A stretch of DNA of 64,000 nt, from contig NZ_FNPT01000001.1 in assembly GCF_900107375.1 (NCBI RefSeq), forward strand, positions 124,001-188,000. Reading direction: 5' to 3'. Position numbers and translations under genes: made by a program. Shown in pieces: positions 52,397 to 64,000 of this stretch. The DNA comes from Lysobacter sp. yr284. GTDB taxonomy: Bacteria > Pseudomonadota > Gammaproteobacteria > Xanthomonadales > Xanthomonadaceae. Each line of letters starts with the position of its first letter. Position 1 is the stretch's first letter. The notes beneath the pieces are model-generated. The model did no database searches, was not told the origin of the DNA, and saw only the letters and a program-made list of their open reading frames with translations.

Positions 52397-52873
52397 ATGA
52401 GCATCCAGGTCGGCGACCGCCTGCCCGAAGTCGCGCTCAAGCGCATCAACGAAGGCATCGAGACGGTCGATACCCGCGCCCTGTTCGACGACCGCAAGGC
52501 GGTGCTGTTCGCGGTGCCCGGCGCCTTCACTCCGACCTGTTCGGAAAAGCACCTGCCGGGCTTCGTCGAGCACTTCCAGCAGTTCCGCGACAAGGGCATC
52601 GAAGTGGCCTGCCTGGCCGTCAACGATCCCTTCGTCATGCAGGCCTGGGCGCAGAGCCAGCACGTGCCCGACGGCATGCTGATGCTGTCCGACGGCAACG
52701 GCGACCTGACCCGCGCGCTCGGCCTGGAGCTGGACGCCAGCGCCTACGGCATGGGCACGCGCGCCAAGCGCTTCGCCCTGTACGTCGAGAACGGCGTGGT
52801 CAAGCAGCTGCATGTCGAGGAACCCGGCGAGTACCGGGTGTCCTCGGCCGAATACATGCTCGAACAGGTCTGA
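52397..52873 (+). CDS. Peroxiredoxin (PRX5/Grx-type redoxin)
   Basis: The 158-residue thiol peroxidase has the peroxidatic Cys48 in 'FAVPGAFTPTCSEKHLPGF', the pattern of the Prx5 group, plus 'CLAVNDPFVMQAWAQSQ' and 'LGLELDASAYGMGTRAKRFA'. It reduces peroxides in the cytoplasm, with glutaredoxin or thioredoxin as donor in known members. No fused glutaredoxin domain is present. AGGAG eight bases upstream of the ATG supports the start. Its neighbours (co-chaperone, ferritin-like protein, quinone reductase) suggest a loose oxidative-stress group. Confidence 0.93.
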   Translation: MSIQVGDRLPEVALKRINEGIETVDTRALFDDRKAVLFAVPGAFTPTCSEKHLPGFVEHFQQFRDKGIEVACLAVNDPFVMQAWAQSQHVPDGMLMLSDGNGDLTRALGLELDASAYGMGTRAKRFALYVENGVVKQLHVEEPGEYRVSSAEYMLEQV

Positions 52874-52988
52874 TCCGCGTCGCCGGGCCCGCCGCGCGCG
52901 GGCCCGGCCGCCGCGCATGCGCTCGCTTTTTCATCGCCCCGCTTCACGCACCCGAGGTAGCCCTTCCCCCGACCCGCCAGGAGACGTC

Positions 52989-53648
52989 ATGTCCGCCAAG
53001 CCAGTCAGCCCGCGCCAAACCGCTTCTTCCAAGGCCGCCGCGCCCAAGGTCGCCGCCCCCGCATCCGGCGCGTCCGCCGGCAAGGCCTCCGGCAAGTCCG
53101 GCACGGCCCGTCCCTCGGCCTTCGTCGCCGACATCGACGCCATCCGCGCCCGCGCCCGCAAGCACATCGAGGACGGCGCGATCACCGCCAGCTACGCCGC
53201 CGACCGCGAAGCGGTGATCCGGCTGCTCAACGACGCCCTGGCCACTGAGATCGTCTGCGTGCTGCGCTACAAGCGCCACTACTTCATGGCCAGCGGGCTG
53301 ATGGCCGATGCGATCAAGTCCGAGTTCCTCGAACACGCCAACGAAGAACAGGCCCACGCCGACCTGATCGCCGAGCGCATCGTCCAGCTCGGCGGCGAAC
53401 CCGACCTCAACCCCGACGCGCTGTCGCGCCGCGCCCACGCCGAATACGTGGAAGGCAGCGACCTGCGCGACATGGTCAAGGAAGACTTGATCGCCGAACG
53501 CATCGCCATCGACAGCTACCGCGCGATCATCGACTTCATCGGCGACAAGGACACCACGACCAAGCGCATGATGGAACACATCCTGGCGCAGGAAGAGGAG
53601 CATGCCGACGAGTTGGCCGACATGCTCGACGGCTGGACCGGGCGCTGA
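52989..53648 (+). CDS. Ferritin-like/bacterioferritin-family protein with basic N-terminal tail
   Basis: Residues about 55-219 form a ferritin-like four-helix bundle with the iron-site pattern: Glu in 'LNDALATEIVCVLRYKRHYF', 'EFLEHANEEQAHADLIAERI', 'EDLIAERIAIDSYRAIIDFI' and 'EHILAQEEEHADELADML'. Residues 1-45 are a low-complexity Lys/Ala/Ser/Pro tail ('SSKAAAPKVAAP', 'GKASGKSG'), like the DNA-binding tails of some Dps proteins. The whole may store iron or protect DNA under oxidative stress. The ATG at 52989 starts the tail, with CAGGAG upstream. Whether it binds haem is not clear. Confidence 0.85.
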   Translation: MSAKPVSPRQTASSKAAAPKVAAPASGASAGKASGKSGTARPSAFVADIDAIRARARKHIEDGAITASYAADREAVIRLLNDALATEIVCVLRYKRHYFMASGLMADAIKSEFLEHANEEQAHADLIAERIVQLGGEPDLNPDALSRRAHAEYVEGSDLRDMVKEDLIAERIAIDSYRAIIDFIGDKDTTTKRMMEHILAQEEEHADELADMLDGWTGR

Positions 53649-53861: not shown

Positions 53862-54464
53862 CTACGCCGCCGCGCACTGCGCGCCTTCGACGAACAATCC
53901 GCGCCCCAGCTCGAACGCCGCCTGCAGGTGCGCGGTCGCGTCGCGTTCCTCGCTGTCGAAACGAAAGCTCGAACTGACTACGCACGCGCCGCAGTAATCG
54001 AAGATGCCATGGTCGATCTGGGTCTTCATCGCCACGTCGTAGGCATGCTTGAGGTAGGCGCGCTCGTCGGCGCCGCCCAAACCCAGCAGGTGCACGCGCA
54101 GGCGCTGCAGGCGGCCGGTCGCGCGGCCGTCCTGGGTCGCGTAGGCCCAGCCGTTGGCGAAGGTGCGGTCGATCCAGCCCTTGAGCAACCCCGGCATCGA
54201 CCACCAGTACACCGGGTAGACCAGCACCACCGTGTCGGCGCGGTCGATCCGCGCCTGTTCGGCGAGCACGTCGGCCGGCAGCGGCGCATGGCCGCGGTAG
54301 GCGTCGTGGTCGGCCTGGCCGTAGCGCGGGTCGAAGCCCTCGGCGGCGAGGTCGGCGAGTTCGACGCTGTGGCCGGCGGCGCGGGCGCCCTCGCCCACTT
54401 TCGCGGCGACGGCATGGGTCAACGAATCGGCGGCGGGATGGGCGAGGACGATCAAGACGTGCAT
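53862..54464 (-). CDS. NAD(P)H-dependent quinone reductase (flavodoxin fold)
   Basis: The 200-residue protein has the NQO1/YwrO/KefF-type start 'VLIVLAHPAADSLTHAVA' and the FMN/FAD-binding 'VVLVYPVYWWSMPGLLKGWI' and 'RTFANGWAY', followed by 'LLGLGGADERAY'. Such enzymes reduce quinones and other electrophiles by two electrons. Its start lies 17 bases downstream of a perfect 18-base inverted repeat that is a likely repressor site, so expression is probably induced by quinones or electrophiles. The gene is monocistronic. Confidence 0.9.
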   Translation of the reverse strand: MHVLIVLAHPAADSLTHAVAAKVGEGARAAGHSVELADLAAEGFDPRYGQADHDAYRGHAPLPADVLAEQARIDRADTVVLVYPVYWWSMPGLLKGWIDRTFANGWAYATQDGRATGRLQRLRVHLLGLGGADERAYLKHAYDVAMKTQIDHGIFDYCGACVVSSSFRFDSEERDATAHLQAAFELGRGLFVEGAQCAAA

Positions 54465-56014: not shown

Positions 56015-58411
56015 TCAGCGCAGCACCTTGAACCGCACCCGCGACCACGCGCCGGTGTCGGCCAACGCGGTCAGCGTATGTTCGCCCGGCTCGCCGAAGT
56101 CGTAGTCCAGGCGTCCGCGGCCGTCGGTCTCGCCGATCCAGCGGCCGTCGAGCAGCCAGCGCACCCGCGCGTCGCTGCCGAGCGCGCGCACCGACAGCCG
56201 CAGCGGCGTCGCGCTGCCGGGCGCGCGCGCGAGCGTGGCGAGATCGTCGATGCCTTCGATGCGCAGTTCCTCGGCGGCGTCGCGGCCGTCGGCGCTGCAG
56301 TCCGGCGACAGCGGCGGCAGCCGCGAAGCCCGGCGGGTGTCCGCCGGCAGCCACGGCGAGGCCAGCGCCGGCCAGCGCGCCAGCGCGCGCGCCTCGCGCA
56401 CATGCTCGCGCGCGCAGTCGGCCGACAGCCGCAGGCCGCTGCGCGCATCCACGTCGAAGCGCTCCACGCCCGCGCTCCACAGCCGCGCGTCGCGCTCGGC
56501 GAAGGTCGGCGGCACCGAACCGTCGAGCGTCCAGGCCTCGCGGCGGCGCTGGCACAACTGCGGCTGCGCCGGGTCCGGCGGCAGGCCCAGCGGCCAGCAC
56601 ACCTCGATCTGGCGCACGTTCGCAGGCGGCGGCAGCGGCACCGCGTCGCCTCGCAGGCGCGGCAGGCTGTCGATGGTCTCGAACAACAGCGGCAGCGCGG
56701 TCACCGCGCCGTACTGGCCCGGCAACGGCGTGCCGTCGGGCCGGCCGACCCACACCCCGACGGTGTAGCGGCGCGTGCTGCCCAGCGCCCAGGCGTCGCG
56801 GAAGCCGTAGCTGGTGCCGGTCTTCCAGGCCACGCGCGGGCGGCCGCCGGCGTCGAAGGTCTGCTCGACGCTGCCGGGGCGCGGGTTGGCTTCGAGGATT
56901 TCGCGCACGATCCAGGCCGCGCCCGGCGACAGCAAGCGGCGCTCGATTTTCGGCGCCCCGCGTTGATAGCGCACCCGCCCGGCGATGCCGCCGCGGTTGA
57001 ACGCGGCATACGCGCCGACCAGGTCTTCCAGGCGCGCGCCGGTGCCGCCGAGGATCATCGCCAGGTTCGGCTGCGCGCCGCGCGGCCATTGCAGGTCGAT
57101 GCCGGCGTGGGCGAGGCGCGCGGAGAAGCGCGTCGGGCCGACCCGGTCGAGCAAATCCACCGCCGGGATGTTGAGCGACAGCCGCAGCGCGCTGGCCGCG
57201 CCCACCGGCCCGTTGAAGGCGGTGTCGAAGTTGCCCGGGCGGTAGCCGCCGAAGGATTGCGGCGCATCGACGAACAGGCTTTCCGAATGGATCAGCCCGT
57301 CGTCCATCGCCAATGCGTACAGGAACGGCTTGAGGGTGGAACCGGGCGAGCGCCAGGCCTGGACCATGTCGACGTGGCCCAGCCGCGCGGCGTCGCCGAA
57401 GGTCACCGAGCCGACGTAGGCGCGCGCTTCCAGGCTGGCGTTGTCGACCACCAGCAGCGCCGCCGAGGTGCGTTCGGGCAGGCTCGAGAAGTACGCGGCG
57501 ACGCGGTCTTCCAGGGTGCGCTGCAACTGCGGATCGATGGTCGAGACCACCCGCGCCGCGCGCGGGTTGGCGAAGCGCAGGCGCTGCGCCAGCAGCGGCG
57601 CGAACCGCGGCGGCTGCAGCGAGCGCGCCACCACCGGCTCGAGCTGGGCGTCGGCGACCTGGGCGCGCGTCCACACGCCCAGTTGCGCCATGCGCGCGAG
57701 CACCTTGTCGCGGGCGACGCGCGCGCGCTCGGGCTCGCGGTCCGGGCGCAGCCGGCTCGGCGATTGCGGCAGCACCGTCAGCAGCGCGGCCTCGGCGTGC
57801 GACAGGCGCGAGGACGGCTTGCCCAGATAGGCCCAGCTCGCCGCTTCCACGCCCTCCACGGTGCCGCCGAACGGCGCGCGGTTGAGGTAGAGCGCGAGGA
57901 TCTGCGGCTTGGACAGATGCGCTTCGAGCTGCAGCGCGCGCAGCATCTGCCGGCTCTTGGCCCACAGGCTGCGGCGCGGTTCGCCGGGCTCGGCGTCGAG
58001 GATGCGCGCGACCTGCATGGTCAGGGTCGAACCGCCGGACACCACCCGCCCGCTGCGCAGCCATTGCGCCGCCGCGCGCGCCATCGCCGCGGGGTTGATG
58101 CCCGGATGGCGGAAGAACCAGCGGTCTTCGTAGTTGAGCAGCGCTTGCAGGTACAGCGGCGACACCTGGCTGGCGGCGACCGGATAACGCCACACCCCGT
58201 CGCGGTCGGCGAACGCGCGCAGCGGCGTGCCGTCGCGCGCGACCACCACCGCGCCGGCGTCGCGCGCGCGCGGCAACGGCAGCGGGAAGGCAAGGTCCAG
58301 CAGCATCGCGGCGATCGCCAGGCACGCCAGCGCCAGGGTCGCCCACAGCGCGGCGCGGCGCAGGCGGATGCGGCGCGGGGGCGTGGCGGTGGCGGCGGAG
58401 AGCGACGGCAT
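56015..58411 (-). CDS. pbpC: Penicillin-binding protein 1C
   Basis: The 798-residue inner-membrane peptidoglycan synthase has one N-terminal membrane segment (about 18-42), a GT51 glycosyltransferase domain with the catalytic Glu95 in 'LLNYEDRWFFRHPGIN' and 'GGSTLTMQVARIL', and a transpeptidase domain with Ser358-x-x-Lys361 (SPGSTLKP), Ser412-Leu-Asn414 and Lys530-Thr-Gly (AWKTGTSYGFRDAW). The C-terminal ~130 residues match the BiPBP_C domain ending PBP1C proteins. All catalytic residues are intact. In E. coli, pbpC lies next to the alpha-2-macroglobulin gene yfhM; here two lipoprotein genes come between them. Confidence 0.96.
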   Translation of the reverse strand: MPSLSAATATPPRRIRLRRAALWATLALACLAIAAMLLDLAFPLPLPRARDAGAVVVARDGTPLRAFADRDGVWRYPVAASQVSPLYLQALLNYEDRWFFRHPGINPAAMARAAAQWLRSGRVVSGGSTLTMQVARILDAEPGEPRRSLWAKSRQMLRALQLEAHLSKPQILALYLNRAPFGGTVEGVEAASWAYLGKPSSRLSHAEAALLTVLPQSPSRLRPDREPERARVARDKVLARMAQLGVWTRAQVADAQLEPVVARSLQPPRFAPLLAQRLRFANPRAARVVSTIDPQLQRTLEDRVAAYFSSLPERTSAALLVVDNASLEARAYVGSVTFGDAARLGHVDMVQAWRSPGSTLKPFLYALAMDDGLIHSESLFVDAPQSFGGYRPGNFDTAFNGPVGAASALRLSLNIPAVDLLDRVGPTRFSARLAHAGIDLQWPRGAQPNLAMILGGTGARLEDLVGAYAAFNRGGIAGRVRYQRGAPKIERRLLSPGAAWIVREILEANPRPGSVEQTFDAGGRPRVAWKTGTSYGFRDAWALGSTRRYTVGVWVGRPDGTPLPGQYGAVTALPLLFETIDSLPRLRGDAVPLPPPANVRQIEVCWPLGLPPDPAQPQLCQRRREAWTLDGSVPPTFAERDARLWSAGVERFDVDARSGLRLSADCAREHVREARALARWPALASPWLPADTRRASRLPPLSPDCSADGRDAAEELRIEGIDDLATLARAPGSATPLRLSVRALGSDARVRWLLDGRWIGETDGRGRLDYDFGEPGEHTLTALADTGAWSRVRFKVLR

Positions 58412-58429
58412 CGAAACTTCGGTTCTGTG

Positions 58430-58532
58430 GTGGGAGCGACGTCAGTCCCGACGCTGTCGTTTCAGCTCGCCGGACGCATCGGCAGTTCGCAGCGAAAGGA
58501 AGCGACAGCGTCGGGACTGACGCCCCTCCCAC
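58430..58532. repeat. REP-like inverted pair, family 2 (copy m)
   Basis: The left arm is GTGGGAGCGACGTCAGTCCC and the right arm mirrors GTGGGAGGGGCGTCAGTCCC; pairing continues through GACGCTGTCG/CGACAGCGTC. It separates pbpC from the lipoprotein gene upstream of it. Confidence 0.8.
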
Positions 58533-58571
58533 AAGCGCGGGCCCGGTCGCGAGCCCGCCGTGCGTCGCCGC

Positions 58572-59657
58572 TCAGCCGGCGCCGTTGGGCAGCTGGATGC
58601 GCAGTTCGCCGTCGATCAGGAACAGGCGCATCTCTTCGTACACGCGCCGGCTGGCCTTCTCGCGGTCGAGCACTTCGCCCAGGGTCTTGGCTTCGGCCTT
58701 GACGTCCTTGCCGATGCCGCCGCTGACTTCGATCCGCGCCTGGATCAGTTCCTCGTTGCCTTCGTCGCGGTCTTCGTCCGGGTCCCAGTCGATCCGCAGT
58801 TCCGACCACTCGGTCTCCTCGCCCTGGCTGCGCTGGCCGTAGGCGGTCTCGCCGCCTTCCTGGTCGGGCTCGGGCTTGAGCGCGCGCACCCGGTCCAGCA
58901 GCAGCGCGTAGTCGGCCAGGCGCTGCGCCGGGAACAGGTTGTCGAAATGGCGCTCGGCCATGGCCCGGTCGATGCGGTCGTTGTTGCGCTCGGCCTCGTC
59001 GCCCAGCGGCGTGCCCTGCACCGGCACCTGGCCGAGCGGGATCGGGAACTTGAACGCGTCCAGGATCGCCTTGCGGTCCTTGCGCGCGAACGCGTCGGCC
59101 AGCGCGCCCAGGCGCTGGCGCACGCGCGCGTCGGCGGTTTCGCTGGCGAGCTTGGCCAGGGTCTTGCCGTTCCAGGCGTAGGTCAGGTACTCGCGGGTCT
59201 TGGGCCGCGCGGCGGTGCAAATGTCGGGCACCTGCAGGGTCAGCTTGCCGTGCGCGATCTTGTCCAGGTACACGCAGTCGTCGGGCGTGTCGGCGGCCGG
59301 CAGCAACTGCGGGCCATCGGCGCGGCTGAGGATCGCCGCCCACTTCTTCAGCGTCGCCATCTGCGCGTCGGGCGTGCCCTCGCCGTAGGCGACCACGACG
59401 TCGTCGACGCCGTCGCCGTCGAGGTCGCCGACCAAGTGCTCATAGCCCAGGCGCTCGAAGTCCGGCACGCGCTTGCGCAACGCGGCGAAGGCGGCTTCGG
59501 CGGTTTGCTTGGGGTCGGCAACAGGTTTAGCCGGCGCCGCGGCGGCAGGTGCCGCGGCCTGGGCGGCCGGCGCTTCGGCGGCGGACGGGTCGGCGGCCTT
59601 GCAGGCGGCCAACGCCAAGCCGATCAGCAACGCGGCGGACAATCGGGTGTAACGCAT
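58572..59657 (-). CDS. Lipoprotein of unknown function, paralogue 2 of the A2M/PBP1C locus
   Basis: The 361-residue protein has a lipobox ending at Cys19 (ALAAC), then an Ala/Pro linker to about residue 48. The mature domain contains 'VGDLDGDGVDDVVVAYG' (residues 77-92), a DxDxDGxxD calcium-loop-like motif of the FG-GAP/dockerin style. Later come a helical stretch ('RQRLGALADAFARKDRKAIL') and an acidic segment ('DWDPDEDRDEGNEELIQARI'). The upstream gene encodes a protein of the same plan. I know no named family. It lies between the alpha-2-macroglobulin and PBP1C genes on the same strand. Confidence 0.75.
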   Translation of the reverse strand: MRYTRLSAALLIGLALAACKAADPSAAEAPAAQAAAPAAAAPAKPVADPKQTAEAAFAALRKRVPDFERLGYEHLVGDLDGDGVDDVVVAYGEGTPDAQMATLKKWAAILSRADGPQLLPAADTPDDCVYLDKIAHGKLTLQVPDICTAARPKTREYLTYAWNGKTLAKLASETADARVRQRLGALADAFARKDRKAILDAFKFPIPLGQVPVQGTPLGDEAERNNDRIDRAMAERHFDNLFPAQRLADYALLLDRVRALKPEPDQEGGETAYGQRSQGEETEWSELRIDWDPDEDRDEGNEELIQARIEVSGGIGKDVKAEAKTLGEVLDREKASRRVYEEMRLFLIDGELRIQLPNGAG

Positions 59658-59770
59658 CTATCGCTCCTTGCCGGTGTTCGCGACCGGCGGGGGCCGGCCG
59701 AAGGTCGTGACCGAAACTTCGGTCGAATGGGGGCGCGGCCGCCGTCGCGGCCGGCGCGGGCGCGGCGCTC

Positions 59771-60838
59771 TCAGCTTTCCAGGCCGTCGAGATCGTGCGC
59801 GTCGGCTTCTTCCAGATACAGCTCGCCGTCGATCAGGCGCCAGCGCAGGTGATAGCCGACGCCGTCGCCTTCCGGCCATTCCACGGTCGCGCGCGCGTCG
59901 ACCACGTAGGTGTAGCCGTCGATCTCGACGGTCGCATCGTCAGGCGCTGTGTCGATGAGCAGCTTGCGCTCGCCGGCGTCGGCGCCGCGCGGTTTGACGA
60001 AGCTGACGACGCTCTCGTGAGGATCGAGCCGCTTCAATTCGAGGCGGCTCAAGAGGCCGACCGCATCGGCGAAAGCGCGACGCCGATCAGCGTCGGCGAG
60101 GACCGGGTCGGGCGCCGGCGCGGCTTCGCCGCGGATCGGCGGGCCCGGTCGCAGGTTGGCGTCCAGGGCCGACAGCTTGCCTGCCTCGATCGCCTCGCGC
60201 ATCGCCCGCAGGCGCGACAGCACCCGCTGCCGCGCATCCTCGGTCGACACCCGCACCAGCGCGCCGTTGCGCCATTCGAACTGGTAGTAGTTCAAGGTGC
60301 GCGGGAACGGCAGCATGCACGCTTCCAGCCCGTCGGCCCACAAGCGGCCGTCGCGGATCTCGCGCACCGCCGGGCAGTCTTCGAACTTGTCGGTCTGGTC
60401 GGCTTGCAGCTGCAGGCCGCCGTCGCGCGCCAGCAGCACCCGCACCGATTTGGCGACATGGCGCATCGCGCCTTCGTCGCCGATGCCGTATTCGATCACG
60501 ACATCGTCGCGGCCGTCGCGGTCGAGATCGCCGGTGACGTAGTTGACCTCGAACTTGTCGAACACCGGATCGGCCTTGCGCATGACCGCCTCGGCCTGCG
60601 CGATCAAGGGATCGGGCAGCGGCGGCTTGTCGTGTGGCGTGGTGCCGCCCCAGTTCAGCGCCGGATCGGCGGCCGGCGAAGGCGCCGGCGCCGGCGCGAC
60701 CGAGGCCTCGGCCGCCTGCGAGCTGGTCGAGGCGCCCTGGCGCTTGCATCCGGGCGCCAGCGCCAGCAGCGCCGCGCACAGCGCGACGCTGGCCGCGGCG
60801 GGACGCGCGATGCGTCCCGCGCGCGTCGCCGCGGTCAC
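59771..60838 (-). CDS. Lipoprotein of unknown function, paralogue 1, coupled to alpha-2-macroglobulin
   Basis: The 355-residue protein has a signal peptide with an imperfect lipobox (LAPGC, Cys31). After an Ala/Ser/Pro linker it has 'VTGDLDRDGRDDVVIEYG' (residues 102-118), the same DxDxDGxxD motif as the downstream paralogue, then 'DCPAVREIRDGRLWADGLEA' and 'LNYYQFEWRNGALVRVSTED', again parallel to it. It ends with an acidic strand-rich part. The start is a GTG that overlaps the alpha-2-macroglobulin stop codon (GTGA), so it is translationally coupled to it. This coupling is the strongest evidence that the lipoprotein works with the alpha-2-macroglobulin. Confidence 0.78.
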   Translation of the reverse strand: MTAATRAGRIARPAAASVALCAALLALAPGCKRQGASTSSQAAEASVAPAPAPSPAADPALNWGGTTPHDKPPLPDPLIAQAEAVMRKADPVFDKFEVNYVTGDLDRDGRDDVVIEYGIGDEGAMRHVAKSVRVLLARDGGLQLQADQTDKFEDCPAVREIRDGRLWADGLEACMLPFPRTLNYYQFEWRNGALVRVSTEDARQRVLSRLRAMREAIEAGKLSALDANLRPGPPIRGEAAPAPDPVLADADRRRAFADAVGLLSRLELKRLDPHESVVSFVKPRGADAGERKLLIDTAPDDATVEIDGYTYVVDARATVEWPEGDGVGYHLRWRLIDGELYLEEADAHDLDGLES

Positions 60839-63800
60839 GGCTGACGCACCGTCAGGCTGGCCGGCGCGGCCCTGCCGACGCCGCGCAGCTCAGGCCGGTA
60901 CATGTCCTCGACCAGCGACGGCGGCACCGTGTAAGTACCCGGCGTCACCGCGCGCACCAGGTAGAACACCCGCGCGGTGCGGCCGTCGTCGAGCTTGAGC
61001 GCGGCGACGTAGCGGTCGTCGCGGAACTCCTCGTGCTTGACGTCGGCGGCGCTGGAGCGCTCGGAGATTTCGATCCCGTCCACGACCACGCCGGCCCACT
61101 GCTTGGCGTCGCCGAGGTTGAAGTTCTCGATCTCAAGGCCGGCCGGCAGCAGGTCGGTCAGCAAGGCGTCGGGCATCGCGCTGCGGGCCTTGATCGCGAC
61201 CTGCACGATCAGCGCCTCGCCCTCGACCAGGCTGCCGCCGGACCATTCCTTGCCTTCAGTGGTGTAGTACTTGCGCGTGACCTCGATCTTCGAGCCGTCC
61301 GCGGCCGGCGGCGTACGCGGCACGCCGGCGACTTCGAAGCTGGCGTACAGCGGGGTCGGCCCGTTCGGCGCGAAGCTCACGCCGGCGGCCAACTGGGCGA
61401 AGTCGAAGGCGCGGCCGATCAGCTTGGCCGGCTCGGCGTCGGTGGAACCGCCGGCGACGGTCCAGCGGCCCGACAGCTGCTTGCCCTGGTCGGCCATCAG
61501 CGCCTTGCCCAGCCGCGCCAGCGCGACCTGCTCCTGGGTGCTCAGGTACAGCCAGCCGCTGTTGCGGCGCGCATCCAGGTCGCGGCCCATCGCCACCGCA
61601 CGCGCGTCGTACTCGGGCTGCGACAGCTTGTGCTCGTGCACCAGCGCGATCATCAGCGCGTCGTCGCGCAGGCGGCTGCCGTAGTCGCCCAGGTACTCGG
61701 GGCGTTGCGACGAATCGCGGCCGAAGCCTTCCTTGATCGCCTTGGCGCCGCGCGCCTTGTCGCCCTGCAGGCTCAGCGCCAGGCCCAGGTGCACCAGCGG
61801 CAGCCCGGTCAGGCTCTGTTTGCGGTCGTTGTCGTACAGCGCGCGCAAGGTGCCCAGCGGAGCGCGGTTGACCCGCGCCAGCACGTAGCCGGCGTGGGCC
61901 TGGTAGGCGAACTTGAGGTGCTCGCGGCGGTCGTAGCCGTAGAACGAGGCGTTGCCCGACAGCAGGTCCTCGCCGAGCGCCTTGAGCGCCTTCTGCAGCA
62001 TGGTCTCGGGCACGGCGAAGCCGGCGTCGCGCGCGTCGAGCAGGAACTCGACCACGTACGGGGTCAGCGCCGGGTTGACGTAGTCGCCGTCGCCCCACAT
62101 CGAGAAATGCCCCGAGGCGATCTGCATCGCCGCCAGTCGGCCGAACGCGCCTTCCATGCGCGCGCGCCGCTGCTTGGCGTCGATGCCCTTGACGCCGAGC
62201 ATCTTGGCCGTGGCCTCGTCGAGTTCGAGCGCGGCATAGCCCTTGCTCGTGGTCTGCTCGGCGCAGCCGTACGGGTATTCCAGCGCGCCCTGCAGCGCGC
62301 TGGCGAACGGGATCGGCGGCAACGCGCTGACCACCATGCGCGCGCTGACAGAATCCGGCATCAGGCCGTCGGCGAACTCGCTGCCGAGCTGGATCGCGCC
62401 GATCTCGTCGAGCACGCGGGTGCGCGAACGCAGCACCGACGGCCACGCCGGGCGCACCGGCAGGTCGTAGCGGCGGTCGACCTTGTAGCCGTTGCCGTCC
62501 ACCTGCACCCGCACCTGCGCGACCGTGTAGCCCTCGCGCGCGGTCACCGGGAAGGTCAGGGTCTTCTTCGCGTCCACGCCCAGGGCCAGGGTGTGCTCGC
62601 CGCCGTCCAGCGACAGCGGGCCGATGCCTTCGACCTTGACCTTGAACTCGCCCGGCTTGCCGGTGAAGTTCTGCACGTCCAGGGTCACGTTGCTGCGGTC
62701 GCCCGGCGCCAGCACCCGCGGCGTGCTCGCCTCGGCCAGCACCGGCGCGCGCACGATGGTCTCGGCGTCGCGGTTGCCGTAGCTGCCGCCGGAATACACC
62801 AGCGCCGACACCCGCAAGGTGCCGTTGAAGTCCGGCACCGCCAGCTTGATCCGGGCGATGCCCTGCGCGTCGAGCTTGACCGGGCCGGCGAACAGATCGA
62901 CCGTCTGCACCCGCGCGGTTGGCCGCCGCGCCTGCGGCAGCGCCTGCAGCGCCATGTCGCCGCCGAAACGGATCTTGGCGCTCTCGCCGTCGAAGCTCTC
63001 GATCACCCGCCCGTACACGTCGTAGGAATCCACGCCGAGCCGGCGCTGGGCGAAGAAGTGCGCGGCCGCGTCGGGCACCGCGAAGCGGGTGATGTTGAGG
63101 ATGCCCACGTCCACCGCCGAGACGGTGACGTAGGCGTCCTTGCCGGCCAACTGCGGCGCGCTGACGGTCACCGGCAGGTCCTGCTCGGGCTTCATCAGCT
63201 TGGGCACGTTCAGGCCGACCGCGACCTTGCGCTCGCGCCGGTCCATCGGCACGAAGGCCACGCCGACCGCGCGCGCCGGGGTGATCTTGCTCGGCGCGCT
63301 GCCGCCGCGGAACACCAGCGCGGTGACGTAGACGTCGTGGCGCTCCCAGGCCTCGGTGACCGGGATCTTGAACTTGCTGCCGGCCTTGGCGGCGATCGCC
63401 TGCACGTAGACCATGCGGTCGGTCTCGACCATCAACAGGCCCGGACCTTCGTGCGGCGGCGTCACCGTCACCTCCAGCGTGTCGCCGGACTTGTACGAAG
63501 TCTTGTCCAGCGCCAGCTTGACCTTGTCGGGACGCGCGTCGAGGCCGCGGTTCTGGTCGTCCCAGCTCCAGCCGGCGCGGAACGGATAGCGGGTGGTGAT
63601 CTTGGTCTGCGGGTCGAACACGTCGAGGCGGTACTCGCCCCACTCGACCTGGAAGCTGAGCTTGGACGCGTTGGCGCCGAGATCGACGCTGCGGGTTTCC
63701 ACGTCCTCGAAGCGGCGGGTGAAGTCGTACTTCCAGCCGCCTTCCTCGCCGTAGTTCCAGTGGTAGTCGCGGCGCTCGCGCACCAGGGTCGCGCGCACGC

Positions 63801-64000
63801 CGCTGGCCGGGCGCGGCTTGCCGTCGCTGCCCACGCGCATCAGTTCGAAGCCGACCGTGGCGTTGCTGTCGGCGCCGTCCTTGTCGTCGAACAGCGGGCG
63901 CACGCCGACCAGCGCGTCGGCCGGCCACAGCACCCGCTTGACGCTGCGGTTGACGCTGCGGCCGCCGCTCTCGTAGACGCTGCCGGTGACGATCGCGGCG
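60835..64000 (-). CDS. Bacterial alpha-2-macroglobulin (YfhM-type), 5' end beyond the window
   Basis: At least 1055 codons of a large envelope protein are visible; the frame is open to the window edge ('ESGGRSVNRSVKRVLWPADA'), so the N-terminus is missing. The thioester motif is intact: Cys-Ala-Glu-Gln (62254-62265) in 'YPYGCAEQTTSKGYAALELD'. The alpha-alpha barrel ('MQIASGHFSMWGDGDYVNPA') and the receptor-like C-terminal domain ('RSAMPDALLTDLLPAGLEIE') follow. Such proteins trap foreign proteases in the periplasm; the thioester links covalently to the attacker, and the partner PBP1C is thought to repair the wall. It overlaps the downstream lipoprotein gene by four bases. Confidence 0.95.
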   Translation of the reverse strand, partial: AAIVTGSVYESGGRSVNRSVKRVLWPADALVGVRPLFDDKDGADSNATVGFELMRVGSDGKPRPASGVRATLVRERRDYHWNYGEEGGWKYDFTRRFEDVETRSVDLGANASKLSFQVEWGEYRLDVFDPQTKITTRYPFRAGWSWDDQNRGLDARPDKVKLALDKTSYKSGDTLEVTVTPPHEGPGLLMVETDRMVYVQAIAAKAGSKFKIPVTEAWERHDVYVTALVFRGGSAPSKITPARAVGVAFVPMDRRERKVAVGLNVPKLMKPEQDLPVTVSAPQLAGKDAYVTVSAVDVGILNITRFAVPDAAAHFFAQRRLGVDSYDVYGRVIESFDGESAKIRFGGDMALQALPQARRPTARVQTVDLFAGPVKLDAQGIARIKLAVPDFNGTLRVSALVYSGGSYGNRDAETIVRAPVLAEASTPRVLAPGDRSNVTLDVQNFTGKPGEFKVKVEGIGPLSLDGGEHTLALGVDAKKTLTFPVTAREGYTVAQVRVQVDGNGYKVDRRYDLPVRPAWPSVLRSRTRVLDEIGAIQLGSEFADGLMPDSVSARMVVSALPPIPFASALQGALEYPYGCAEQTTSKGYAALELDEATAKMLGVKGIDAKQRRARMEGAFGRLAAMQIASGHFSMWGDGDYVNPALTPYVVEFLLDARDAGFAVPETMLQKALKALGEDLLSGNASFYGYDRREHLKFAYQAHAGYVLARVNRAPLGTLRALYDNDRKQSLTGLPLVHLGLALSLQGDKARGAKAIKEGFGRDSSQRPEYLGDYGSRLRDDALMIALVHEHKLSQPEYDARAVAMGRDLDARRNSGWLYLSTQEQVALARLGKALMADQGKQLSGRWTVAGGSTDAEPAKLIGRAFDFAQLAAGVSFAPNGPTPLYASFEVAGVPRTPPAADGSKIEVTRKYYTTEGKEWSGGSLVEGEALIVQVAIKARSAMPDALLTDLLPAGLEIENFNLGDAKQWAGVVVDGIEISERSSAADVKHEEFRDDRYVAALKLDDGRTARVFYLVRAVTPGTYTVPPSLVEDMYRPELRGVGRAAPASLTVRQP

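Follow-up and report, generated by a model that had tools for sequence, protein, structure and literature searches.

In a 64,000-nt stretch of DNA from Lysobacter sp. yr284 (the window; source genome G000, a 6.25 Mb assembly in 46 contigs), the genes of an alpha-2-macroglobulin (A2M), two predicted lipoproteins (LP1 and LP2), and penicillin-binding protein 1C (PBP1C, encoded by pbpC) follow one another in the order A2M, LP1, LP2, pbpC, all on the minus strand (Table 1). The locus resembles E. coli yfhM-pbpC, in which a thioester A2M likewise stands in one run with pbpC, and differs from it by the two lipoprotein genes in between and by divergent M4 metalloprotease genes upstream of A2M. A2M and PBP1C have been proposed to act as a trap-and-repair pair, A2M trapping periplasmic proteases and PBP1C repairing the wall (PMC4498604). 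A first-pass annotation of the window had described a thioester-containing A2M and an intact PBP1C on the same strand with two paralogous lipoprotein genes between them, and both descriptions were borne out.

Table 1. Positions of the genes and motifs of the A2M-pbpC locus in the window.
Feature	Position	Strand	Remarks
Type I alpha-2-macroglobulin, C-terminal part, 1054 codons	60835..64000	-	Pfam domains bMG1/2/3/5/6/10, MG2, BRD, A2M
CAEQ thioester motif of A2M	62254..62265	-	
GTGA, overlap of A2M stop and LP1 start	60835..60838	-	weak evidence alone; also in congeners without LPs
LP1, 355 aa, predicted lipoprotein (Cys31)	59771..60838	-	disordered head, then propeller-like and second beta domains
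LP1 calcium-loop motif DLDRDGRDD, residues 104-112	60503..60529	-	
LP2, 361 aa, predicted lipoprotein (LAAC, Cys19), paralogue of LP1	58572..59657	-	
LP2 calcium-loop motif DLDGDGVDD, residues 78-86	59400..59426	-	
pbpC, penicillin-binding protein 1C	56015..58411	-	transglycosylase, transpeptidase, BiPBP_C domains

The A2M is 1665 aa at full length; it ends at 60835 and starts 1.8 kb beyond the window end, at L003:13832 (window-equivalent 65832). CAEQ, an instance of the CXEQ thioester motif, together with bacterial MG domains and a bait region domain over the Pfam cut-offs, assigned it to type I. The TED model scored under its cut-off in the window fragment and was not among the E 0.01 matches of the whole protein. 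A lipobox (VAGC) was found by eye near the N-terminus. PBP1C scored 762 bits against the NCBIfam model PBP_1c (TIGR02073; cut-off 494) and 899 bits against NF008414 (PbpC), which is below the cut-off of 1121 for that model, and it retained the catalytic motifs EDRWF, STLK (S358), SLN, and KTGT, confirming that it is intact. The source genome also encodes, at L004 (G000:C18:16001-36000), another and distantly related A2M (27% identical) beside a further pbpC-like gene (37%), their matches lying close together; A2Ms of this second type (E 1e-60) were present in 12 of 20 Lysobacter genomes, and a pbpC-like neighbour was seen in G000 and G003.

LP1 and LP2 are paralogues of no named family and share 33% identity over 161 aa (E 3e-9). 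No Pfam family passed its cut-off for either protein, FG-GAP (PF01839) remaining below it in both (12 and 19.9 bits versus 22.1), and PHROGs and NCBIfam gave no match under E 0.05. Among the papers listed on A2M with pbpC, PBP1C, or lipoproteins, on Lysobacter macroglobulin, immunity and type IV secretion, and on self-protection and FG-GAP, judged by their titles and abstract openings, none dealt with these lipoproteins. A cysteine after Gly or Ala was seen by eye within the first ~40 residues of 15 LP1 and 13 LP2 sequences, predicting lipidation, and the lipobox of the LP1 in the window (LAPGC) is weak. The same 15 and 13 sequences all kept the DxDxDGxxD aspartates and, in addition to the lipobox cysteine, two others; all 13 LP2 sequences contained exactly three cysteines. 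The propeller-like domain was the best-conserved part of LP1: invariant positions across the 15 sequences numbered 41 of 127 there, 19 of 154 in the tail, and 2 of 74 in the signal peptide and linker.

AlphaFold models (mean pLDDT 81 for LP1 and 78 for LP2) predicted a disordered head followed by a set of strands (eight in LP1, seven in LP2) that may represent two propeller blades. Beyond these strands, the models have a helical stretch and then a further beta domain. The predicted flexible linker after the lipidated cysteine spans ~41 residues in LP1 and ~27 in LP2. The top structure matches were DDB1 propellers, with Z scores up to 9.1 for LP1 (~100 residues) and 7.7 for LP2, and Foldseek also ranked DDB1 first; these matches probably reflect a common blade arrangement. 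Sequence matches of the LP profiles in the PDB (E <0.1) were confined to the calcium loop and included a secreted esterase (best 2.4e-9) and integrin alpha-V. The LPs share with FG-GAP or integrin-type repeats (PF01839) a DxDxDGxxD loop with flanking strands; each LP has a single such loop and scores below the Pfam cut-off.

The first-pass annotation had drawn attention to the four bases, GTGA, shared by the A2M stop and the LP1 start. The overlap is present: the GTG at 60838 is the sole in-frame start of the LP1 open reading frame (ORF) in the window, and all 15 LP-bearing genomes, the source genome included, had GTG or TTG in frame with LP1 at the A2M stop. It nevertheless proves little, because a later in-frame start that still leaves a signal-peptide-like stretch was available in at least four loci (L010, L011, L012, and L014) and because GTGA also occurred at the A2M stop in 5/5 congeners lacking the LPs. 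LP1 and LP2 are 113 bp apart and LP2 and pbpC 160 bp apart, with AAGGAG six bases 5' of the LP2 ATG. From this gene spacing alone, we infer that A2M, LP1, LP2, and pbpC form one transcript. A promoter scan of the locus gave no promoter-like site on the minus strand, and a terminator scan gave 4 terminator-like sites versus a shuffle mean of 5.1.

LPs were found at the locus in 15 of 20 Lysobacter genomes: 13 genomes carried both, two (G005 and G006) carried a single LP that groups with LP1, and five carried none. An LP2 search of 60 genomes, including the source genome, gave matches in 20, of which 15 were strong (best E <= 1e-17) and all from Lysobacter; the 5 weak matches (E 1e-5 to 8e-4) came from three further Lysobacter and two other genomes. 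The LP1 profile matched 7/198 genomes of the family (six Lysobacter and G177), and a combined LP profile matched 3/299 genomes of the order (two Lysobacter and G177) and 1/369 of the class (the source genome). These family, order, and class samples overlap, and scoring extended to no more than 10, 6, and 5 candidates, respectively, in each genome; misses are therefore possible. At this sensitivity, G177 was the only genome outside Lysobacter that the profiles matched, and the LPs were not found to be a wide component of Xanthomonadaceae/Lysobacteraceae or Gammaproteobacteria. The first-pass interpretation was partly supported, and a wider role of the LPs was not.

The G177 protein, from another genus, is 389 aa long with a layout like that of the LPs and shows that the family is also present elsewhere. 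By eye, it is flanked by purA and by hflK/hflC-like genes; the 18 kb read contained no match to A2M or PBP1C. It was the sole exception among the 16 genomes with strong LP matches; in the other 15 these lay between A2M and pbpC, so that homologues are not mostly found away from the locus.

A nearly full-length type I A2M together with pbpC was present in 58 of 99 family genomes, the source genome included; fragmentary A2M matches (G033, G132, and the second match of G129) and all distant second-type A2Ms were left out of this count. The two matches lay within 600 bp of each other in 39 genomes, on different contigs in 5, far apart or on opposite strands in 4, and separated by 690 bp to 16 kb in 10. 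Two of these 10 gapped loci were LP loci, and the other eight contained no LP match (tblastn, E 1e-2). A2M and pbpC abut in most other Lysobacteraceae sampled.

A quick tree built from the A2Ms of 21 genomes set the 15 genomes with LPs apart from the 5 congeners without them and one outgroup (SH-aLRT support 100), and the fewest changes required were two, namely one gain of the LPs and one loss of LP2. The LP tree largely agreed with the A2M tree but exchanged the order of the two deepest LP1 groups. LP1 and LP2 separated fully, indicating that their duplication is older than the LP-bearing clade. A recent, strain-specific chance insertion was ruled out by the 15 genomes and the single gain on the A2M tree; the LPs are old and were inherited within the Lysobacter clade. 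Mobile cargo was also considered and rejected: LP1 had no plasmid match, and among 179 pattern-matching stretches in viral contigs none was confirmed. The LPs are a clade-specific, inherited addition to the Lysobacter A2M-pbpC locus.

The ratio of nonsynonymous to synonymous substitution rates (dN/dS) was computed for 17 genome pairs for LP1 and 14 for LP2. Among 11 related pairs, it was 0.26-0.62 for LP1, 0.09-0.37 for LP2 (10 pairs), 0.04-0.17 for A2M, and 0.03-0.16 for PBP1C; among five more distant pairs, the values were 0.48-0.91 for LP1, 0.79-0.90 for LP2 (3 pairs), 0.20-0.28 for A2M, and 0.15-0.19 for PBP1C. The ratio was below 1 in 16/17 pairs for LP1 and in 14/14 for LP2, the LP1 exception being G009-G019, with a value of 1.16 on almost no change. 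LP1 is under purifying selection, yet it changes far faster than A2M and PBP1C. The arrangement of the LPs is more than chance, because they occupy the same place in 15/15 genomes, their dN/dS is mostly below 1, and their cysteines and calcium-loop aspartates are invariant. In pairs with G002 or G018, nucleotide identity fell from ~92-97% in late A2M to ~68-86% in LP1 and recovered within pbpC. Among G000, G008, and G014, LP1 past its first 200 bases was 94-100% identical, at least as high as the adjoining A2M, and between G000 and G008 it was 100% identical over 300 bases, compared with ~95-96% in the adjoining A2M. This identity pattern over 59771-60838 (G000, G008, and G014 versus G002 and G018) suggests a possible exchange of alleles between species.

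A role as accessory subunits, in which the LPs would attach to A2M and either stabilise it or position it in the envelope, has a precedent in the Pseudomonas aeruginosa mag operon, in which an A2M is likewise co-encoded with smaller envelope proteins, MagA, MagB, and MagF among them; the A2M of that operon, MagD, is bound by Mag proteins and kept at the membrane by MagB (PMC5764988). The candidate LP1 start at the A2M stop in every LP-bearing genome would allow coupled translation, although at least four loci also offer later starts. The two systems differ in that MagD lacks a thioester and its six-gene operon, as described, lacks pbpC, whereas the Lysobacter A2M has CAEQ. Since the A2M carries a lipobox of its own, the first-pass suggestion that the LPs tether it is unlikely. 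Type I A2M also occurs without LPs in 5 congeners and in other genera sampled. The much faster change of LP1 relative to A2M and PBP1C speaks against a rigid, obligate subunit, and a search for a co-adapted A2M surface gave 24 fixed residues on the LP-bearing stem versus 20 on the sister stem, with at most 5 per 100 residues. We consider accessory subunits rather unlikely. No support was obtained for the further suggestions that the LPs report thioester cleavage or regulate PBP1C.

LpoA and LpoB are lipoprotein activators of PBP1A and PBP1B. LP2 adjoins pbpC, and a lipobox-like cysteine followed by a predicted disordered linker and folded tail would be compatible with lipoproteins that reach PBP1C in the same manner. 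However, G005 and G006 lack LP2 although their PBP1C is 90-91% identical to that of the window, and pbpC occurs without LPs in most genera sampled, making PBP1C activators the least probable of the roles considered here.

Beyond the window, at L003:14639-20000 (window-equivalent 66639-72000), genes for a trypsin-like protease and for two M4 metalloproteases, one of which has a P-domain, stand in tandem and divergent from A2M; their products are predicted to be secreted. An upstream ORF, UP717, was rejected as a gene, being antisense to an M4 protease gene. Divergent M4 genes within ~7 kb of A2M were found at 19/19 judgeable Lysobacter loci, with or without LPs, and a trypsin-like gene at 5/19. 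G012 was not judgeable for M4, with only 2.2 kb upstream and a P-domain fragment there. In other genera, M4 genes stood beside A2M at 1/21 loci (G032), these loci having been chosen among the 54 other-genus genomes in the A2M-plus-pbpC count. The source genome contained 6 PF02868 matches, 2 of them beside A2M. L. capsici secretes bacteriolytic proteases that cut the peptide bridges of peptidoglycan (PMC12250508). On the far side of pbpC lie a flavodoxin-fold protein (53862-54464, minus strand) and a ferritin-like protein (52812-53648, plus strand), both ordinary by Pfam.

We favour, with a probability of about one in three, the reading that LP1 and LP2 are a clade-specific addition to an A2M-pbpC envelope-protection operon and block hydrolases. 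The LPs would be made together with A2M and would bind and block hydrolases that damage the envelope, either exported proteases or lytic enzymes of the cell itself or those of rivals; meanwhile, A2M would trap proteases and PBP1C would rebuild the wall. The fast change of the LPs would then reflect changing targets. This reading is supported by the shared position in 15/15 genomes, the single gain with one LP2 loss, the fast change of LP1, the LP models, a weak structural match to an immunity lipoprotein (below), the divergent M4 genes, and the precedent of MagD, a type II A2M that protects against some wall-targeting type VI secretion system (T6SS) effectors (PMC12663445). Inhibitors are preferred to a MagD-like scaffold because the A2M carries an anchor itself, is found elsewhere without LPs, and is much more strongly constrained than LP1. 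A fuller version, in which the whole locus would be a self-protection module of protease secretors, encoded back to back with the secreted proteases, with A2M trapping, a new calcium-loop lipoprotein family blocking wall- or protein-cutting enzymes, and PBP1C repairing, we judge unlikely.

The structural match is to 4qtq, the structure of XAC2610, an X-Tfi immunity lipoprotein of Xanthomonas that inhibits a wall hydrolase through an inhibitory loop at residues 165-173, after a calcium loop at 151-159; XAC2610, PliI, and Tsi1 all have their active loop between the second and third strands of a sheet (PMC10933484). Foldseek placed 4qtq at rank 31 for LP1 (E 0.012, probability 0.87). The LPs resemble XAC2610 in having a predicted lipoprotein box, a predicted propeller-like topology, and a calcium loop followed by a conserved loop (PMC10933484). 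In LP1, a conserved stretch (118-127) begins in strand 2 and continues into the loop that precedes strand 3; the spacing of its residues 118-126 from the calcium loop (104-112) is as for the two loops of XAC2610. They differ from XAC2610, PliI, and Tsi1 by a further beta domain, by the lack of an effector gene alongside and of the offset tyrosine, and in that no sequence kinship was established. For profile comparison, lipoproteins beside GH19 ORFs in G025, G126, and G035 served as surrogates for XAC2610; the one tried had no phmmer match to 4qtq. Whole LP and surrogate profiles matched with 84.7% probability, signal peptide and linker included, and this match fell away without those parts. 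The surrogates themselves (L177-L179) are lipoproteins of 237-269 aa beside GH19-containing ORFs, have a calcium-loop-like GDLTGxGxSD, and are possibly immunity proteins; two that were scanned had no Pfam family over the cut-off.

Several of these comparisons, and others, weigh against the hydrolase-blocking reading. The LP1-4qtq match was poor overall (TM 0.23 by target, root mean square deviation 11.9), and 4qtq was not among the 50 Foldseek matches listed for LP2. Nor did it appear among the 50 VIA-align matches listed, or when the LP profiles were compared with PDB sequences. Any FG-GAP-type blade might show such loop spacing, and integrin alpha-V matches the same stretch. LP1 has Gly123, not a tyrosine, at the position that corresponds by simple offset to Tyr170 of XAC2610. 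With core-only profiles, the surrogate comparison scored 18.0, and 60 column shuffles reached 18.8 at most. The fast change of LP1 could reflect relaxed constraint. The M4 neighbours do not go with the LPs, since they also stand beside A2M in the LP-less congeners. XVIPCD (PF20410), the effector domain of the X-type type IV secretion system (T4SS), had no match at the LP locus, the nearest one on that contig lying ~62 kb from A2M.

The same data bear on an origin of the LPs as immunity or orphan-immunity lipoproteins against particular T4SS or T6SS wall hydrolases, taken into the operon. Besides the weak fold and loop parallels with XAC2610, the source genome contained 27 XVIPCD matches, and an XVIPCD protein is encoded ~4.5 kb from the G177 relative. 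When the short flanks of the 27 matches were filtered by motif for genes resembling XAC2610, no candidate was convincing. No effector gene adjoins the LPs, and the surrogate core profiles did not exceed the shuffles. The LPs are also inherited by descent, without the plasmid or confirmed viral matches noted above. We regard this origin as quite improbable.

The gap between A2M and pbpC in other genera also counts against the favoured reading. By eye, it contained unrelated restriction-endonuclease-like and racemase-like ORFs; in L060, L061, L063, and L064 (genera g7 and g17), it spanned 7-14 kb and held TonB-dependent receptors by Pfam, some of these gaps also holding a MacB or HlyD protein, a sigma-54 response regulator, or a GDPD protein. 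In L062, the gap was 16 kb. Because the gap accepts unrelated genes in other genera, the LPs may be a lipoprotein pair with an unrelated envelope role that landed in an insertion-tolerant gap and was kept by descent alone, as the LP relative away from A2M in G177 would also permit. Against this, LP1 was kept in 15/15 genomes of the clade under purifying selection, and we find such hitchhiking rather unlikely, to the same degree as accessory subunits.

The locus extends a known gene pair in a way that is real, conserved, and specific to one lineage, and its LP family is unnamed in the libraries searched; the LPs are more deeply conserved, and less widely spread, than the first reading supposed. 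The function of bacterial A2M-PBP1C pairs is still a proposal, and the Lysobacter pair carries extra lipoproteins and protease neighbours. Lysobacter are soil bacteria known for their secreted lytic enzymes, and the LPs possibly help to protect their own envelope. Should A2M, the two LPs, and PBP1C shield Lysobacter against its own enzymes, the LPs would define a family of possible hydrolase inhibitors that has so far gone uncharacterised, and the trap-and-repair proposal would become testable in biocontrol strains.

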